Shown piece after piece: positions 36,944 to 46,968 of a stretch of 46,968 nucleotides of DNA. The notes below the pieces were generated by a model. That model saw only the letters and a program-made list of their open reading frames with translations, was not told the origin of the DNA and ran no database searches. Source of the stretch: Clostridia bacterium (GTDB lineage: Bacteria; Bacillota; Clostridia; Christensenellales; Borkfalkiaceae); NCBI GenBank assembly GCA_017502525.1, contig JAFVUV010000026.1, forward strand, positions 1 through 46,968, in the 5' to 3' direction. The translations under genes were made by a program, and so were the position numbers. How positions within the stretch are numbered: position 1 is the first letter of the stretch; each line of letters starts with the position of its first letter.

Positions 36944-37429
36944 TTACGGAATATTTACGTGTTCTATATGCACGCAAACGGCTTGGTTGAAACTATATGA
37001 AAATAAATTTTTATTATAAACGTCAAAAGTATGTGCGCTTACATATATTTGACCGTTTTCTACGCCGTTTACAAATAAAGTGTGGTAAAGTTCACCATTT
37101 GCTCTTCTTAAAAATATAACGTCTGCTTTTTCTACTGAGTTAAAGTTTACTATACGCCCAATAGGACCAACACCGTCGTTATTAACTAAAAAATTATAAA
37201 AAAATTCTACTCCCGACCAAGATGGCGTTCTATCATTTATATTGTTATAATACCAACCTAAAACTGGCGTGTAATTCATAATTTCTGCACCGCTATAAAC
37301 GCATTGCGATACAAAATTTGTGCAATCACCACCTAAATTATTAAAATTGTAATATATAGGATTTCTATTATAAGCCCAAGTTTTTGCATAATTTACTGCG
37401 CTATCTCTATTATATAGTTTTATTTTCAT
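36944..37429 (-). CDS. Small amidase-domain (Amidase_6-like) protein
   Basis: A 161-residue protein made of a single papain-like amidase domain of the type PF12671. The active-site cysteine is Cys36 in GGDCTNFVSQC, with candidate histidines His116 (YHTLFV) and His133 (SAHTFD). Relatives are usually longer and carry a signal peptide; this one has none, so it would act in the cytoplasm or, if sporulation-linked, in the mother cell or after lysis. No Shine-Dalgarno precedes the ATG; a CATAAAATA element 4 bases upstream resembles a SigK -10 but is too short to be decisive. The next 190 bases (37430-37620) hold only promoters. Confidence 0.72.
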   Translation of the reverse strand: MKIKLYNRDSAVNYAKTWAYNRNPIYYNFNNLGGDCTNFVSQCVYSGAEIMNYTPVLGWYYNNINDRTPSWSGVEFFYNFLVNNDGVGPIGRIVNFNSVEKADVIFLRRANGELYHTLFVNGVENGQIYVSAHTFDVYNKNLFSYSFNQAVCVHIEHVNIP

Positions 37430-38450: not shown

Positions 38451-39148
38451 TGGTTATTTGGCAAATGTTCGTTGACTCCTTCATAACGCAAGGAGGATAT
38501 AAAGAAGCGCTTAAAGGACTTGCAGTTACACTTGTAACTGCAATTTCTGCGTTAATAATTGGTATAATTTTAGGTACGACAATAGCGTTTATTTTGTTAT
38601 CTAAAAGCAATAATCCTTTAGTTAAAACCTTAAAAATTTTTTTCAAAGGCTACGTTGCTTTTTTCCGTGGTACACCTATTGCCGTTCAATTGCTGTTTAT
38701 TTATTTTGTAATTTTTCCAGCCATAGGGCTTGGTTTATTGAAAGCAGAAATTGTTGGTATCATTATTTTCGGATTAAATTCAGGAGCTTACGTTTCTGAA
38801 ATAATGCGTGGTGGTATTTTATCCGTTGACAAAGGACAAACCGAAGCGGGTAGAGCGTTAGGCTTATCGTCAGTTCAAACTATGCTTAAAATTATCATTC
38901 CGCAAGCTGTAAAAAACGTTATTCCTACAATAGGTAACGAGTTTGTTTCGCTTTTAAAAGAAACGTCGGTTTTAAGTTTTATTGGTGTAATGGATTTGAC
39001 TAAAGCATTTAGAGAAATTGGTGGCGGAAACTATGAATACACTATTCCGTACTTAATTCTTGCTCTTGCATATTTAATTTTGGTCTACATCGTTACTAAT
39101 ATCGTTAAGAATATTGAAAGGAGGATGAGAGCAAGTGATAGACAATAA
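38450..39148 (+). CDS. Polar amino acid ABC transporter, permease (HisM/GlnP type)
   Basis: A 232-residue inner-membrane permease with about five membrane segments. The ABC-interacting EAA loop is present (EAGRALGLS followed by IIIPQ, about 140-160), as is the family marker [16 protein letters not shown] (about 73-88). It probably forms a homodimer, since only one permease is encoded. The end overlaps the ATPase start by 14 bases. Confidence 0.93.
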
Positions 39149-40094
39149 TCAAACTTTCAATAATGAAATTTTAGTAAAGGTTAATAACGTATATAAAGAC
39201 TTTGGAAAAGTTAAAGTGCTTAAAGGCGTTAGTTGTAACATCAAAAAAGGTGAAAAAGTAGTAATTATCGGACCATCTGGAAGCGGTAAATCAACTATGC
39301 TACGTTGCATGAACTTGCTTGAAACACCAACCTATGGTGAAATTTGGTTTGAAGACAAGCTATTGACACCCGTTGACCCGTATTTGCATTTTGATATTAT
39401 TAGGCAATCCAACACCTACAAACAGCTTATAGTTAACGAAAAAGATAAAAATCCAGATTTAACTGACGAACAACTTGATGAGCAAGTTATTGCATTAATC
39501 AAAAAAGATGATTTGCTGAAAAAACGTGAAGGCAAAGAATTTAAACTTGCCGAGAAAAAGTTTTATAATGAAAATTATCTTGACGTAAACCTTACGCGTA
39601 GAAAAATGGGTATGGTTTTTCAACATTTTAACTTGTTTAATAATTTAAATGTGTTAGACAATCTAACTCTAGCGCCTGTTCAATTAAAATTAAAAACCAA
39701 AGAACAAGCTGAAGAAAAAGCAATGGAGTTGTTGTGCAGGATAGGACTTGAGGATAAAGCAAAAGTTTATCCTTCCACTCTTTCGGGGGGGCAAAAGCAA
39801 AGAATAGCTATAATCCGTGCGCTAGCGATGGAACCCGACGTTATGCTTTTTGATGAGCCTACTTCAGCTTTGGACCCTGAAATGGTCGGAGAGGTTTTAG
39901 CACTTATGAAAGAACTTGCCGACGATGGTATGACTATGGTAGTCGTAACACACGAAATGGGATTTGCAAAAGAAGTTGCTTCTAGAATCATATTTATGGA
40001 CGAAGGTAAAATCAAAGAAGAAAATTCTCCACAAGAATTTTTTGCTAACCCCAAAGATGAAAGACTTAAAGAATTTTTATCTAAAGTATTATAA
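39135..40094 (+). CDS. Polar amino acid ABC transporter, ATP-binding protein with an insertion
   Basis: A 319-residue GlnQ/HisP-type ATPase. Walker [10 protein letters not shown] is at 46-54, Q-loop Gln163, signature LSGGQ at 216-220, Walker B with DEPTSALD at 240-247, and switch His273. Ordinary members have about 240-255 residues. The extra length is a highly charged, probably helical insertion of some 65-70 residues between Walker A and the Q-loop (about 80-150, containing [12 protein letters not shown]). It starts with GTG at 39135, with GGAGG 11 bases upstream inside the permease gene. Confidence 0.93.
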
Positions 40095-40102
40095 TTATTT
40101 TA

Positions 40103-40138
40103 TTATCCCGCGCTTAACAGTGCGGGATAAATTTTTAT
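40103..40138 (+). terminator. Terminator of the ABC transporter operon
   Basis: Stem TTATCCCGC (40103-40111) with GCGGGATAA (40122-40130), 10-base loop, then ATTTTTAT. Confidence 0.7.
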
Positions 40139-40142
40139 AAAA

Positions 40143-40174
40143 ACAAACGCCCTGCAATCACGCAGGGCGTTTGT
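40143..40174 (-). terminator. Terminator of the AraC-type gene
   Basis: A 13-bp perfect stem, ACAAACGCCCTGC (40143-40155) with GCAGGGCGTTTGT (40162-40174). On the minus strand it is followed by a TTTTTAT run. Confidence 0.85.
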
Positions 40175-40185
40175 GATAATACGAA

Positions 40186-41049
40186 CTAAATAATTTTTTT
40201 ATTATATTTGTATGAACTAGGTAACATACCTAATTTATTTTTAAAAACTTTTGAAAAATAATTGGGGGTATCAAAATTTAATTTAAGCGCTGTATCTGTT
40301 ATACTGTGACCATTTTTAAGCATTTTGATGCTTTCTTTTATCTTTAAGTCGATATAATAATCCATTATAGTGGTGCCGGTAATTTTCTTGAATATTTTGT
40401 TTATGTAAGTTTTGCTGAAAAACACTCTTTCGCTAATTTCATCTAGAGTAATTTTGCCAAAAATATTTTGTTTTAAAATGGCTTTTATATCTTTAACGAC
40501 GTTAGAGTGAAGTTCATCTTTATTTGAAACCAAACTTATTTCTTTTTGTTCATCAAGTTTTTGTCTAATAATACTTATTAAGACTTCTTCTATTGCATTG
40601 TTTATTAATTGTTGTGCACCAAAAATAGGGTTTTCGCACGGCTGAAGTTTTTTATTGAAAGGGAATTTAAAAGCGTTGTGCGCTTCTGACAATATTTTAG
40701 ATAAAATTATTTTGTCGTTGTCATTGACGGTATTTTTACCGCTGATTATTTGTAAAATATCCGTTTTACAAGAAAAACAAGCAATAAAGATAGATGTGTT
40801 TTTAACTTTATTAGCTTTGTAATAATGCTTTTCACCAGGTTTAATCAAATAAAAATCGTTTTGATTTAACATTGTTTTAACATCGTTACAAAAACAGGAA
40901 ATTGAACCGTTATCAACGTATGCAAACTCATAAAAATCGTGAGCTTCTTTGGGATACGTGAAATCTGGCGATACGTTAATGTGTTCAAGCGTTATTAAGT
41001 TTTTTACCGTTACAACTTTATTTACCGTGAAATTGATGTATTTTTTCAT
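40186..41049 (-). CDS. AraC-family transcriptional regulator
   Basis: A 287-residue regulator. The N-terminal half is a cupin-like sensor (HDFYEFAYVDNGSISCF near 36-52, LIKPGEKHYY near 67-76). The C-terminal 100 residues carry the AraC double helix-turn-helix, with ISERVFFSKTYINKIFKK and the closing signature ALKLNFDTPNYFSKVFK. It is divergent from the M81-M24-ASRT operon and is the obvious candidate to control it. I start at the ATG at 41049; an in-frame ATG at 41070 overlaps the -10 box. No Shine-Dalgarno is visible and the predicted leader is only about 3 bases. Confidence 0.88.
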   Translation of the reverse strand: MKKYINFTVNKVVTVKNLITLEHINVSPDFTYPKEAHDFYEFAYVDNGSISCFCNDVKTMLNQNDFYLIKPGEKHYYKANKVKNTSIFIACFSCKTDILQIISGKNTVNDNDKIILSKILSEAHNAFKFPFNKKLQPCENPIFGAQQLINNAIEEVLISIIRQKLDEQKEISLVSNKDELHSNVVKDIKAILKQNIFGKITLDEISERVFFSKTYINKIFKKITGTTIMDYYIDLKIKESIKMLKNGHSITDTALKLNFDTPNYFSKVFKNKLGMLPSSYKYNKKII

Positions 41050-41058
41050 ATTAATGAT

Positions 41059-41086
41059 ATTATAACACACAAAAGTAAAAAATCAA
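41059..41086 (-). promoter_or_regulatory. Promoter of the AraC-type gene
   Basis: On the minus strand, -35 TTGATT (41081-41086), 16 bases, -10 TATAAT (41059-41064). The -10 is 9 bases from the start codon, so the mRNA is nearly leaderless. Confidence 0.65.
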
Positions 41087-41136
41087 ATAAAAAATATATA
41101 GTTTGATAAATTACTCTTTTTTGATTTATATTTTGC

Positions 41137-41166
41137 ATTGTAATTTAAATATTGTAATGATATAAT
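41137..41166 (+). promoter_or_regulatory. Promoter with direct repeats before the M81 gene
   Basis: TTGTAA (41138-41143), 17 bases, TATAAT (41161-41166). The octamer ATTGTAAT occurs twice in direct orientation (41137-41144 and 41151-41158), over the -35 and in the spacer, and could be recognised by the divergent AraC-type protein. Confidence 0.6.
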
Positions 41167-41185
41167 TTGGGCATAGGAGGAAGCA

Positions 41186-42580
41186 ATGAAAAAAATAATA
41201 GTAGCATCGTTTCAATGCGAATCTAACAGCAAGGCAAAATTACATCCCACCAAAGAAGATTTTGAATATTTTAAGGGTGAAGATATTTTTAAGAAACTAG
41301 CAGTTAAAGAAATATTTGAAAATGCTGGTTTTTCTGCTGTGCCTGCGGTTTATGCCGTTGCACTACCATCTGCAACTGTTACCGAAGACGTGTATTTCCA
41401 TTTTGAAAGACAAATTATGGAAACGGTAAATGCTAATCCTGACGCAGTTGGCGTATATATTTGGTTTCACGGCAGTATGGAAGTTGAAAATATCGGTAGT
41501 GGTGAACTGTTTCTATTAAAAGAGATAAGAAAGGTCGTTTCTAAAGATTGCTTAATTGCTATTTCTTTAGACGCGCACGCAAATATTACAGACGAACTGT
41601 GTAATTACGCAGATATCGTAAGCGGATTTAAGACTGTTCCGCATATTGACCAAGTTGAATGCCAACAACGCTCGGCAAACGCGCTGGTATATTGTTTAAA
41701 CAATAACGTAAAACCTTATGCATATATGCAACGCGTTCCGTTCTTATTAAAAAACGATACTTTGCAAACAGCTTATGAACCGCTTAAGAGTTTGATTAAA
41801 GATACTTTAGATTTAGAAAGTAGTAAAGAAGTTTTAACCGCAAACTTGTTTTTAGGACATTGTTGGATAGATGCGCCTAACACTTCCGCATCTACGGTTG
41901 TGTGCGCGCTAAATAAAGAAAAAGCTGAATTAATTGCAAAAGATTTAGCTAATAAACTTTGGGCAACTAGAAATAACTATAAATTCTTATGTGAAGCGGA
42001 ACTTCCAAAAGAGTGTGTAAAAAGAGCTATAGAAGGCAAAGAAAATAGAATTTTTATAACTGATAGTGGGGACAACACGACTGCTGGAGCAGAAGGAGAA
42101 AGTACGGAAATTCTAGAATTGTTTATTAAAGAAAAGCCTATCAAGAAAACTTGTATTGCCGGTATAACCGATATTGATTTAGTTGATAAGTTTTGGGCTA
42201 AAAAGGATGGCGAAGAAGTTTTTCTTGAAAAATTCGGCGTTAAAGCAATGGTAAAAGTGCACGGTGAAATTCTCGGTTGGGCAAAAGAAATTATCGGCAG
42301 AAGTTTAACGTTTAGTATTGGAAATATAGATGCAATATTTACAGAAAAACGCAGTGCTTTTATAGAAAAAGGTAATTTTGACAAAGCAAACGTTGATTTA
42401 TTAGAATATCAAATCGTAATGGTAAAACTTGGGTATTTATTTACCGAGTTAAAACCTTACGCGGATAGAGAATTGTTTGCTTTATCTGATGGCGCAAGTT
42501 GTGTAGAGCTTGCAAGATTAAATCTTAAAAACATAATTCGTCCGATGTATCCATTAGATGAGTTTGAATTTAAAGTATAA
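41186..42580 (+). CDS. M81 (MlrC-like) family metallopeptidase
   Basis: A 464-residue MlrC/DUF1485 family protein. The N-terminal domain runs from FQCESNS (9-15); metal-site residues are expected in LDAHAN (Asp129, His131) and VPHIDQ (His153), with FHGSM at 94-98. The C-terminal domain contains TDSGDNTTAGAEGEST (292-307), the counterpart of the family DNPGGG-like loop. The name comes from an enzyme that cleaves linearised microcystin; substrates of most relatives are unknown. AGGAGG precedes the ATG. It heads an apparent operon with the M24-like and ASRT-like genes. Confidence 0.85.
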   Translation: MKKIIVASFQCESNSKAKLHPTKEDFEYFKGEDIFKKLAVKEIFENAGFSAVPAVYAVALPSATVTEDVYFHFERQIMETVNANPDAVGVYIWFHGSMEVENIGSGELFLLKEIRKVVSKDCLIAISLDAHANITDELCNYADIVSGFKTVPHIDQVECQQRSANALVYCLNNNVKPYAYMQRVPFLLKNDTLQTAYEPLKSLIKDTLDLESSKEVLTANLFLGHCWIDAPNTSASTVVCALNKEKAELIAKDLANKLWATRNNYKFLCEAELPKECVKRAIEGKENRIFITDSGDNTTAGAEGESTEILELFIKEKPIKKTCIAGITDIDLVDKFWAKKDGEEVFLEKFGVKAMVKVHGEILGWAKEIIGRSLTFSIGNIDAIFTEKRSAFIEKGNFDKANVDLLEYQIVMVKLGYLFTELKPYADRELFALSDGASCVELARLNLKNIIRPMYPLDEFEFKV

Positions 42581-42600
42581 TATTTTATAAGGAGATTATT

Positions 42601-43773
42601 ATGGCATATTACAACAAACAAGAAACAGAAAGCAGAGTAAAAAAAGTAGTTAATTTACTCAACGAAAAAGACATTGACGTTGCAATCATCTATTTTGATG
42701 AGCTTAACGTAGCAAACGGTTGGTATCTTACCGGTTGGTGCGGTCAATTTGAAAAGGGCGCAGTTTTAGTTGGACGTGACGGAACTACGATGCTTTTAGG
42801 CGGACCTGAAAGCGAACCTTTTGCAAAACAAGATTCAGCAATCACCGACGTAAGATGTTTCCCTGTATTTATGGTTCCCGATGAAGAATATCCTTTGGCA
42901 ACCATTATTAGTTTTGCAGATTTATTTGCAGAACTTAGAGCTAAGTTTCCCGTAAAGAAAATCGGTTTAGTGGGAACTACCGATATGCCTTATGCAGTGC
43001 ACGAAGACCTTGTTAAAGGCTTTGAAGGTTGTGAAATTTACGACATAACTGAAGACTACTTGAAATTTAGATATATCAAGAGTGATTGGGAAGTAGAACA
43101 AGCAAGAAAAGCAACACAACTTGCTTGTGAAGCTTATAAAGCAATGGCCACAAAAGTTAAAGAAGGCGCAAAAGAATACGAAGTAGCAGCCGCTGGTGAA
43201 GAAGTTTGCCGTTCTAAAGGCGCAGACAGTTTTGCTTATAGAACAATCGTAGGTAGTGGTGCTCGTTCAAATGCAGTAGTTCCTACCGCAACTAATAAAG
43301 AAATGAAAAACGGTGAAATGGTTATGCTTGGTATTGCACCAAGAATTAACGGTTACGCAGGTACGTTTGGACATACCGTTCCCGTAAGTGGCGAATACAC
43401 TCCTGAACAAAGAAAATGTCTTATCGATATGATTGAAGTTATGAGAGACGTTAAAGATGCTCTTAAAATTGGTAACAGTGGTAGAGAAATTGATAAAGCT
43501 GGTAGAAAACTTTACGAGAAAGGTGGATATCTTAAATATATCGTTTGTCCTTTTGCACACACTATGGGTCTTATGGAAGCAGAAGCTCCTTTCTTTGGAC
43601 CTAATAGTGACGATAAGATTGAAAAGAATATGATTATCAACGTAGACGTAAGCTTTTTCGGACATCCCACGTTACACGGTTTAAGGGTAGAAACCTGTTA
43701 CGTTATTACTGAAAACGGGGCAGAACCCTTGTGTCCGTGGTTTGAAGAAGAATTATTTAATTACGTAAAATAA
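42601..43773 (+). CDS. M24-fold (creatinase/Xaa-Pro peptidase-like) protein with altered active site
   Basis: A 390-residue two-domain protein: an N-terminal creatinase-N-like domain (about 1-150) and a C-terminal pita-bread domain (about 160-390). Measured against metal-dependent M24 peptidases, both bridging aspartates appear lost (Gly244 and Thr255 in VMLGIAPRINGYAGT), the proton-shuttle histidine position reads Thr229 (VVPTATN), and the usual second HExP histidine is Ala. His320, Asp349 (for Glu) and Glu364 remain. Creatinase is also a metal-free member, so a non-peptidase hydrolase or a binding role is possible. It starts 20 bases after the M81 gene with AAGGAG. Confidence 0.82.
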   Translation: MAYYNKQETESRVKKVVNLLNEKDIDVAIIYFDELNVANGWYLTGWCGQFEKGAVLVGRDGTTMLLGGPESEPFAKQDSAITDVRCFPVFMVPDEEYPLATIISFADLFAELRAKFPVKKIGLVGTTDMPYAVHEDLVKGFEGCEIYDITEDYLKFRYIKSDWEVEQARKATQLACEAYKAMATKVKEGAKEYEVAAAGEEVCRSKGADSFAYRTIVGSGARSNAVVPTATNKEMKNGEMVMLGIAPRINGYAGTFGHTVPVSGEYTPEQRKCLIDMIEVMRDVKDALKIGNSGREIDKAGRKLYEKGGYLKYIVCPFAHTMGLMEAEAPFFGPNSDDKIEKNMIINVDVSFFGHPTLHGLRVETCYVITENGAEPLCPWFEEELFNYVK

Positions 43774-43786
43774 GGAGGATAAATTT

Positions 43787-44161
43787 ATGTTTAAAGGCAA
43801 AAATGGAAAGAAAAATTGGGTTTTTTGTGATGGCGACTTACCACCACACGGAGATAATCCTAACTTTTTAGGACACGAAGCGCTTATGATTACCAACGTT
43901 GGTAAAAAGGACGCTCACATCACTATTAAAGTTATTTTTGAAGATAAAGAACCTTATGATAAAATCACTATTGACTTAAAAGCAGAAAGAACTACTTGTT
44001 TAAGACTTGACTATCCGATAGGCAAGGAACAATATCAAATTCCTTTTGGTCAATATGCTTTACATATTATTTCAGACGTTCCCGTTTGCGCTTGCTTTGG
44101 TAGATTAGACGTTCGTCAAAGCAATATGGCATATTATAGTTTAAGTGGTTATTCATTTTAA
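43787..44161 (+). CDS. ASRT-family (sensory rhodopsin transducer-like) small protein
   Basis: A 124-residue all-beta protein recognised as a relative of the Anabaena sensory rhodopsin transducer (PF07100). Conserved positions visible are W13 with DGDLPPHG, LGHEALMITN (28-37), IFEDKEP (49-55), the Arg/Leu strand CLRLDYP and the C-terminal RLDVRQSN (101-108). No rhodopsin gene is in the window. The family has been proposed to bind small molecules such as sugars. Here it is third in an operon with M81 and M24-like proteins, 13 bases after the latter, which suggests it binds or handles their substrate. AAGGAGG precedes the ATG. Confidence 0.82.
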   Translation: MFKGKNGKKNWVFCDGDLPPHGDNPNFLGHEALMITNVGKKDAHITIKVIFEDKEPYDKITIDLKAERTTCLRLDYPIGKEQYQIPFGQYALHIISDVPVCACFGRLDVRQSNMAYYSLSGYSF

Positions 44162-44187: not shown

Positions 44188-44222
44188 TTATCAACGCCCC
44201 TAATTTTTAGGGGCGTTGATAA
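44188..44222 (+). terminator. Terminator-like hairpin after the ASRT-family gene
   Basis: A 16-bp perfect stem, TTATCAACGCCCCTAA (44188-44203) with its complement at 44207-44222, 3-base loop. The following T run is short (GGTTTTAAT). Confidence 0.65.
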
Positions 44223-45328: not shown

Positions 45329-46968
45329 ATGAAAAATTATCATAATCTATCAGCGTATCAAACAGTTATATTGCGCAACTACGGTTTAGTGCCTAACGTA
45401 AATATTGCAAAAGTTTTAAGCACTAGCGAAGAAGTTGTTGTGCTTGAAGCGCAAAAATTAGGTTTAGACGAGATAAAATTTAATCCGGATTGGGCAGAAA
45501 AAGGTTTTGTTACGATTATTAGAAGTAATTGGGACTTATTGCCTTTGTCGGATATTGCGTTGCTTTTAGATATAAGTGTGGGTGCGCTTGAAACTCTACT
45601 TAAAGAATATGATTTTTTAGACGTTAAACTAGGGGAAAAACCTGTTTGTGATAAAATCGTATATAGTTTAAAATCAGAAGATATTGTTGCTACCGCATGT
45701 GCGAAAAAAATAGTTGAAAATAATTTTATTAAGTCTAGTGCAAAGCCCTTTGATTTTTTTAAAAACTACGTTGAACCTATATATTTCGAGCCAAAAGATT
45801 GTGCAATTAAAGAGCGTTTTACATCTAATTATTGTGCAAAATACAGTGGCTCGTTATTAGATGATGATTTGTCCGATTATTCTGTTGATTATTTGAAAAA
45901 ACTTAAATCTACAGGAACAAACGGTATCTGGCTTTCTGATACGCTAAGAAATCTTGCGGAATTTCCGTTTGACACTTCTCTTTCGCCTGATTATAAAATA
46001 AGAATTAAGAATCTAAAAAAACTTACAGAAAGGTGTGCTAAAGTTGGTGTCAACGTTTATTTGTATATGAACGAACCTCGTAGTTTAAACGCAGACTTTT
46101 TTGAGAAATATCCACACCTAAAAGGGCAAAAGGCTGATGATGGGACGTACTGCTTATGCACGTCTGCACCAGAAGTTAAAAATTATTTGTACAATGCCTT
46201 TAAGAGTTTGGCAGAGAACGTACCGCTACTTAAAGGTATTATGACAATCACTATGAGTGAAAACCCAACGCATTGTTATGCTAGAGTTTGGGGCGATAAT
46301 AATTGTTACGTTACCGATTGCCCGCGTTGCAAAGATAGAAAACCTTCAGACATAATAGCAGAATTAAATAATATTTATGCTCGCGCACTTAAGGACGGTA
46401 ATGGATATACTAAATTAATTTCTAATATTTGGGGTTGGGCAAATATCGCTAAAAGTGATGAAGACGTATTAGATTGCCTTGATAAACTTGATAAAAACAT
46501 TGAAGTGCTTTGTGTAAGTGAATATGGTAAAAAATTCGTTTTAGGTGGTGTGGATAGCATAGTTGACGATTATTCAATTTCTGTCGTTGGACCGAGTGAT
46601 TTTGCTATAAAAGTTTTAACGCATGCTAAAAAAACTGGTCATAAAATTTGGGCAAAAGTACAACTAAATAACAGTTGGGAATGCTCTGCAGTACCATATT
46701 TACCGGTATTTGACCTTATGTTAAAACACGTTGAAAATCTTAAAGAAATTGGCGTTGAAGCGCTAATGTTAGGATGGAGTCTTGGCGGATATCCCGGCGG
46801 GGTATTACCGCTTTGTAATAGTGCTTGTGGAAAAGGCAAGTATGATGCTAAGCCTTGGTATGATGCTGTTTATGGCGAAAATTCTTCAATCGTTAGTAAC
46901 GCCGTAAGCATTTTTAGTAATGCGTTTAAAGAATTTCCGTTTAGTGTTGATAGCATATATTTTGGTGG
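45329..46968 (+). CDS. Large putative TIM-barrel (glycosidase-like) protein with HTH-like repeats, 3' end cut
   Basis: An open frame of at least 546 residues that runs off the window with no stop. AAAGGAAA precedes the ATG. Residues about 10-50 and 58-97 form a repeated unit (RNYGLVPNVNIAKVL and RSNWDLLPLSDIALLL), each reading like a helix-turn-helix, followed by FLDVKLGEKP. From about 185 the alternating strand-helix pattern (GIWLSDTLRNLAEFPF, CAKVGVNVYLYMNEPR, GIMTITMSENPTHCY, LISNIWGW, VLCVSEYG, ALMLGWSLGGYPG) looks like a TIM barrel. A CPRC pair is at 331-334, and Glu249 and Glu311 are possible catalytic acids. I do not recognise the family with certainty; a glycoside hydrolase acting on an acetylated or modified sugar would fit the SGNH neighbour. 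Confidence 0.6.
   Translation, partial: MKNYHNLSAYQTVILRNYGLVPNVNIAKVLSTSEEVVVLEAQKLGLDEIKFNPDWAEKGFVTIIRSNWDLLPLSDIALLLDISVGALETLLKEYDFLDVKLGEKPVCDKIVYSLKSEDIVATACAKKIVENNFIKSSAKPFDFFKNYVEPIYFEPKDCAIKERFTSNYCAKYSGSLLDDDLSDYSVDYLKKLKSTGTNGIWLSDTLRNLAEFPFDTSLSPDYKIRIKNLKKLTERCAKVGVNVYLYMNEPRSLNADFFEKYPHLKGQKADDGTYCLCTSAPEVKNYLYNAFKSLAENVPLLKGIMTITMSENPTHCYARVWGDNNCYVTDCPRCKDRKPSDIIAELNNIYARALKDGNGYTKLISNIWGWANIAKSDEDVLDCLDKLDKNIEVLCVSEYGKKFVLGGVDSIVDDYSISVVGPSDFAIKVLTHAKKTGHKIWAKVQLNNSWECSAVPYLPVFDLMLKHVENLKEIGVEALMLGWSLGGYPGGVLPLCNSACGKGKYDAKPWYDAVYGENSSIVSNAVSIFSNAFKEFPFSVDSIYFG

Follow-up and report, generated by a model that had tools for sequence, protein, structure and literature searches.

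ASRT proteins have known structures, their function beyond one cyanobacterium is a prediction, and those that stand alone have been proposed to regulate through protein contacts (main text of De Souza et al. 2009, PMC2739507). In the C-glycoside deglycosidase, one active site is built jointly by a subunit that binds metal and a small beta-sandwich subunit, and neither CarB nor CarC alone gives activity (passages on this enzyme in PMC8563793). The stretch analysed here, 46,968 nucleotides in full and called the window below (contig JAFVUV010000026.1 of a Clostridia bacterium, assembly GCA_017502525.1, 1.46 Mb in 41 contigs), encodes an ASRT protein as the last of three co-directional genes, behind a predicted M81 metallohydrolase and an M24-fold protein with an altered active site, with a divergent AraC-type regulator gene ahead of them. 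Across genomes, the M24–ASRT pair is the constant core of this unit and M81 is exchangeable, two points that the original prediction, made from the window alone, had missed. We put at about 40% the probability that the pair is a metal-dependent enzyme with a sugar-binding subunit, acting on a small sugar-derived molecule, and that M81 is a hydrolase for an adjoining step. This reading builds on conservation, gene order, co-variation and two sequence rewrites, one in the M24 active site and one in the ASRT pocket, all observed directly. The genes and the stretch of interest are as follows.

40186..41070, minus strand: AraC-type regulator gene (Pfam HTH_18, HTH_AraC, AraC_binding), divergent from the operon
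41186..42580, plus strand: gene for a predicted M81 (MlrC-like) metallohydrolase (DUF1485, PF07364, 223 bits; MlrC_C, PF07171, 79 bits)
42601..43773, plus strand: M24-fold gene with altered active site (PF00557, 118 bits; PF01321, 33 bits)
43558..43584, plus strand: codons of the H-x5-E-x-E stretch (H320, E326, E328) within the M24 gene
43787..44161, plus strand: gene for the ASRT beta-sandwich protein (PF07100, 87.4 bits against a cut-off of 25), with GHEALM replacing SHExxC

Related loci were collected by scanning the window ASRT against one genome per species, which yielded 72 loci, including 42 from metagenome-assembled genomes (MAGs) labelled with a ruminant gut site; the labels are mostly Clostridia or kin. 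With 99 wider regions and the window these made 172 sources, some contigs occurring in both collections, and 155 distinct loci once identical ASRT proteins were counted a single time. By type, the distinct loci comprise M81 with M24 (type 1, 42 loci), a PTE-family gene with M24 (type 2, 17), a creatininase-family gene with M24 (type 3, 29), M81, PTE and M24 together (2), M24 alone with ASRT (21), PTE without M24 (2) and no M24 nearby (42). The third partner of M24–ASRT is an M81, PTE-family or creatininase-family hydrolase depending on lineage. Gene order is M81–M24–ASRT in 40 of the 42 type-1 loci, the exceptions being one ASRT–M81–M24 and one M24–ASRT–M81, and an AraC gene adjoins M81 divergently in 27 and co-directionally in 1, the position being taken by another gene in 12 and by a contig edge in 2.

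The 155-locus set is biased, its loci having been collected via ASRT, and 201 genomes of the same family served as a less biased sample. PF07100 is present in 34 of these 201, in 71 of 391 genomes sampled from the class and in 12 of 299 from the phylum. The 34 family genomes hold 45 ASRT genes, and 41 of these have an M24 gene no more than 3 kb away. M81 is present in all 17 family genomes with a type-1 M24 and in 6 of the 184 others (Fisher p = 5e-20), and ASRT in 16 of the 17 and 18 of the 184 (p = 2e-13); in the sole type-1 genome lacking ASRT (G725), the M24 gene is broken off by a contig end. The adjacency of M81, M24 and PF07100 genes, which the original prediction had offered as a check on itself, thus proves strongly conserved. 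Chance neighbours without joint function are hardly credible: among 24 M81 genes in 23 family genomes, 16 have M24 no more than 2 kb away and 12 have ASRT no more than 3.5 kb away, and the 8 and 12 that do not would fit such an account, but the kept order, the association of type-1 M24 with M81 and the co-variation of the proteins do not.

That co-variation is seen as correlated distance matrices (Mantel) in type 1, with r of 0.96 for M24–M81, 0.95 for M24–ASRT and 0.93 for ASRT–M81 over 40 of the 42 loci, two with a short M24 being left out, and r of 0.71 for M24–AraC over 27 loci; none of 2000 permutations reaches the observed values. The three proteins likewise co-vary in type 2 (r 0.71-0.90, 17 loci) and type 3 (r 0.76-0.87, 29 loci), where at most 5 of 2000 permutations are as high.

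Locus L081 (2695-8381) carries two M24–ASRT units a short distance apart, the interval holding AraC and M81, and the M24 gene of its second unit reads as two open reading frames in the MAG contig, owing to a frameshift or an assembly error. At L088 (5360-10719), a PTE-family gene and another M24 gene come immediately after an M81–M24–ASRT unit, placing two unit types in tandem.

His192 is the catalytic His of Pyrococcus prolidase. Compared with that enzyme, the window M24 protein has lost His192, Asp209, Asp220 and His291, carries Asp for Glu313 and a new Glu at Ile290, and retains His284, Glu292, Arg325 and Glu327. The statement in the original prediction that most catalytic residues are changed therefore stands for the first set of residues and fails for the four retained ones, and its claim of a protein lacking an ordinary peptidase site is upheld. 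In window numbering, V227, G244, T255 and D349 occupy the positions of His192, Asp209, Asp220 and Glu313, H320, E328 and E364 are kept, and E326 is gained, such that the five prolidase metal ligands D-D-H-E-E read G244, T255, H320, D349 and E364. The two-domain fold is retained in its entirety, with the pita-bread fold and PF00557 recognizable and the overall fold shared with creatinase and DoeA. All of 86 M24 proteins from three lineages lack the catalytic His and two metal-binding Asp; in each, one Glu has become Asp, one Glu has been gained, and a His and a Glu are kept. Of several thousand homologues, the 239 with the best scores were compared, and every one shows the three-position loss; the His, Glu, Asp and Glu that are kept or gained stand unchanged in all 86 proteins and in 238 of these 239. 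Val at position 227 is found in 119 of 119 type-1 homologues among the matches listed.

MlrC acts on peptides, and named homologues of the two enzymes are annotated as aminopeptidase P family protein or Xaa-Pro aminopeptidase (M24) and as M81 family metallopeptidase. These names would suit an ordinary peptide-utilisation operon of two metallopeptidases and an accessory protein, which is very improbable given that the window M24 protein lacks His291 along with the catalytic His and two metal-binding Asp, whereas the two other M24 proteins of the same genome have the D-D-H-E-E ligands, the catalytic His and His291 all intact. A more serious alternative, still unlikely, is that M24 serves as a scaffold without catalysis and ASRT senses a sugar; through contacts that depend on ligand, the pair would then tune either the AraC regulator or the M81 enzyme. 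Such a scaffold fits the absence of the catalytic His and two Asp, the proposal for lone ASRT-type proteins cited above, and the constancy of the pair while the hydrolase changes; the invariance of the His, Glu, Asp and Glu exceeds what a scaffold needs, and the full retention of the two-domain fold also speaks against it.

The second rewrite lies in the proposed ligand pocket of ASRT. The signature SHExxC of ASRT-like proteins reads GHEALM in the window; the pocket Cys occurs in none of the 111 M24-linked ASRTs and in 29 of 43 ASRTs elsewhere, and Gly precedes HE in 110 of the 111. Surroundings of ASRT genes elsewhere include those for rhamnose isomerase, kinase and aldolase. At locus L138, ASRT precedes genes for an FGGY kinase, L-ribulose-5-phosphate 4-epimerase and a 3-epimerase, with M24 and a proline racemase-family gene farther on, and ASRTs carried on plasmids have glycosidases nearby, or a sugar porter together with a mandelate racemase-family gene, or adjoin a D-arabinono-1,4-lactone oxidase gene. 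Some M24–ASRT units are likewise near glycosidase and sugar transporter genes, including sugar ABC genes, with no single family dominant. Together with De Souza et al. 2009, this context points to a sugar or sugar derivative as the substrate. TM1070 is absent from the main text of a paper on the rhamnose regulon (PMC3870299). Rhodopsin (PF01036) matched none of the 201 family genomes, yet the control genomes gave no match either. In the archaeon Natrononativus (L257, 6995-9026), a D-arabinono-1,4-lactone oxidase gene is flanked by two ASRT genes, another link between ASRT and a sugar lactone.

In the M81 protein of the window, E12, H95, D129, H131 and H153 correspond to the zinc ligands of MlrC (E, H, D, H and H, as listed in the ligand description of PMC12474180), the last four mapped through a 7ylq alignment on the assumption of a constant numbering offset of 17 and E12 through a 3iuu alignment; each is conserved in at least 95% of 39 type-1 M81 proteins. 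Assignment as the microcystinase MlrC itself (NF041767) was rejected at 68.4 bits against a curated cut-off of 999.

The hydrolases bear on a further alternative, the idea of the original prediction stripped of its transporter: an amide, lactam or guanidino pathway resembling creatinine breakdown, in which M81 or its creatininase or PTE counterpart would open a ring and M24 would split a C–N bond as creatinase or DoeA does. Creatininase-family and DoeA-like relatives keep an amide substrate possible. For the type-3 representative, however, the creatininase model yields 64 bits (cut-off 235) and that of IolN, a 3-dehydro-scyllo-inosose hydrolase and so a non-amide enzyme judging by its name, 70 bits (cut-off 245); the Sinorhizobium meliloti DoeA (EutD) has the His lost here and lacks the His, Asp and Glu retained here; and the ASRT context is chiefly sugar. 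Because its type-3 representative misses the creatininase cut-off, we rate this pathway lower and consider it improbable. No useful paper on the creatininase-family enzyme IolN was found among open-licence PMC papers.

Since the pair is constant and the hydrolases are exchangeable, M24 and ASRT probably cooperate, with the third enzyme adapting them to a given substrate or step. In the enzyme that we favor, M24 and ASRT would touch each other and serve one common substrate; the retained His, Asp and Glu with the gained Glu would bind a single metal, as opposed to two in prolidases; M81, or elsewhere the PTE-family or creatininase-family enzyme, would open or split the molecule; and AraC would turn the unit on in response to substrate or product. 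A bolder form of this proposal, which we advance tentatively and regard as doubtful in its entirety, is that M24–ASRT constitutes a new two-subunit enzyme class, in which M24 has a single-metal His-Glu-Asp-Glu site and ASRT forms the substrate pocket and is not a photosensory messenger, its core having come together, over evolutionary time, with metal hydrolases of three unrelated families (M81, PTE and creatininase) for different sugar-derived ring compounds in animal guts.

Several observations weigh against a metal-dependent M24–ASRT enzyme. Loss of the catalytic His could indicate a non-enzyme, and joint inheritance would also give the co-variation, with no contact between the proteins. 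Four of the 45 family ASRT genes have no M24 nearby, genome G846 carries M81–M24 and a type-1-like ASRT on separate contigs, and at L138 the M24 gene is some 4.5 kb from ASRT, amid other genes. The Cys is also missing from 14 of the 43 ASRTs counted as M24-free, though in three of these 14 (L138, L175 and L226) the counting rule overlooked an M24 gene or a fragment of one. Finally, a Pfam census of co-directional downstream genes, in which 74 of 86 and 73 of 84 genes were scanned, revealed no dominant pathway, the commonest families (ABC permeases and DUF4432, beside assorted glycosidases and housekeeping genes) making up no more than 4 of 74 and 6 of 73. With downstream genes so mixed, context does not name the substrate, and as no one transporter family recurs beyond those counts, the census also disfavors peptide utilisation.

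Features at the edges of the unit are as follows.

40103..40130, plus strand: terminator-like hairpin closing the upstream ABC transporter genes, a system boundary (terminator scan)
40143..40174, minus strand: terminator-like hairpin after the AraC gene (terminator scan)
41138..41166, plus strand: promoter-like site TTGTAA-17-TATAAT with TG preceding the second hexamer, 19 bases 5' of the M81 start codon, a consensus match only
44190..44220, plus strand: hairpin 3' of ASRT, a likely terminator with a 13-bp stem, 5-base loop and weak T tail, missed by the terminator scan

Gaps of 20 bases separate M81 from M24 and 13 bases M24 from ASRT, and an AGGAGG- or AAGGAG-like ribosome site precedes each of the three genes. 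The divergent AraC gene, the gene trio, its gaps and ribosome sites and the 3' hairpin were all read correctly in the original prediction, as judged by sequence and Pfam. The AraC protein may start at an in-frame ATG at 41049 in place of the GTG at 41070. The region has 24 promoter-like sites and shuffled sequence 21.3, which is no enrichment, and no Rfam family was found at gathering score within the window.

The suggestion that the amino acid ABC transporter encoded upstream belongs to the system had to be abandoned: the two upstream hairpins set the unit apart from the transporter genes, the one on the plus strand ending them, and relatives of the binding protein or permease (above 60 bits, within 6 kb) occur at 1 of 42 type-1 loci, the window alone. 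An ATPase of the transporter's broad cluster lies within 6 kb in 3 of 42. The downstream GDSL gene was dropped as a member as well, since just 1 of 42 loci has kin of it close to the unit; some relatives may be hidden from both of these 1-of-42 counts where a locus ends early. A family of large proteins (cluster c5) is found at 27 loci, near 10 of 42 M81-type and 8 of 29 creatininase-type units, and its window member (45329-46966) runs off the window. It has no Pfam, NCBIfam or PHROG match and a best PDB match at E 0.17; that it is a glycosidase is a guess. Elsewhere in the window, the ABC ATPase (39135-40094) matches ABC_tran in two separate stretches, as if an insertion lay between the Walker A region and the remainder, and a small protein (36944-37429, minus strand) weakly matches a phage protein family without assigned function (42 bits).

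No description of an M81–M24–ASRT unit was found by title or abstract among open-licence PMC papers, in keeping with the original view of an undescribed system. That ASRT is tied to a single altered enzyme family in many gut bacteria offers a direct route to the ASRT ligand, and the loss of three active-site positions in all 239 best-scoring homologues suggests that gut proteins labelled 'aminopeptidase P family' may often be non-peptidases. From M24 prolidases and aminopeptidase P, the protein differs by its lost His192, Asp209, Asp220 and His291, its Asp for Glu313 and its Glu at Ile290. Creatinase works without metal. The creatinase/DoeA pattern, with the catalytic His kept and metal ligands lost, is the opposite of that seen here, as judged on S. 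meliloti EutD. M81 resembles MlrC in domain pair and zinc ligands and differs in operon and in its score far under the MlrC cut-off. The C-glycoside deglycosidase, which acts on sugars with a metal-binding and a small beta-sandwich subunit, may serve as a worked precedent for the pair as a model and not as a homologue, its alpha subunit being a TIM barrel (PMC8563793, in its account of the subunits); its beta subunit is not among the matches listed for the ASRT model, an absence that says little with a model that is only fair (mean pLDDT 73). The ASRT/ASRAH sugar operons of De Souza, Iyer and Aravind (2009, PMC2739507) share with the present unit a stand-alone intracellular ASRT in a metabolic gene unit; their main text mentions no M24, MlrC, creatinase or creatininase, unlike the unit here, and the one tie that it makes to an inactive zincin-like metallopeptidase concerns the secreted kind from actinobacteria. 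Compared with the proteins described there, M24-linked ASRTs replace the Cys of SHExxC in 111 of 111 cases and place Gly before HE in 110 of 111.
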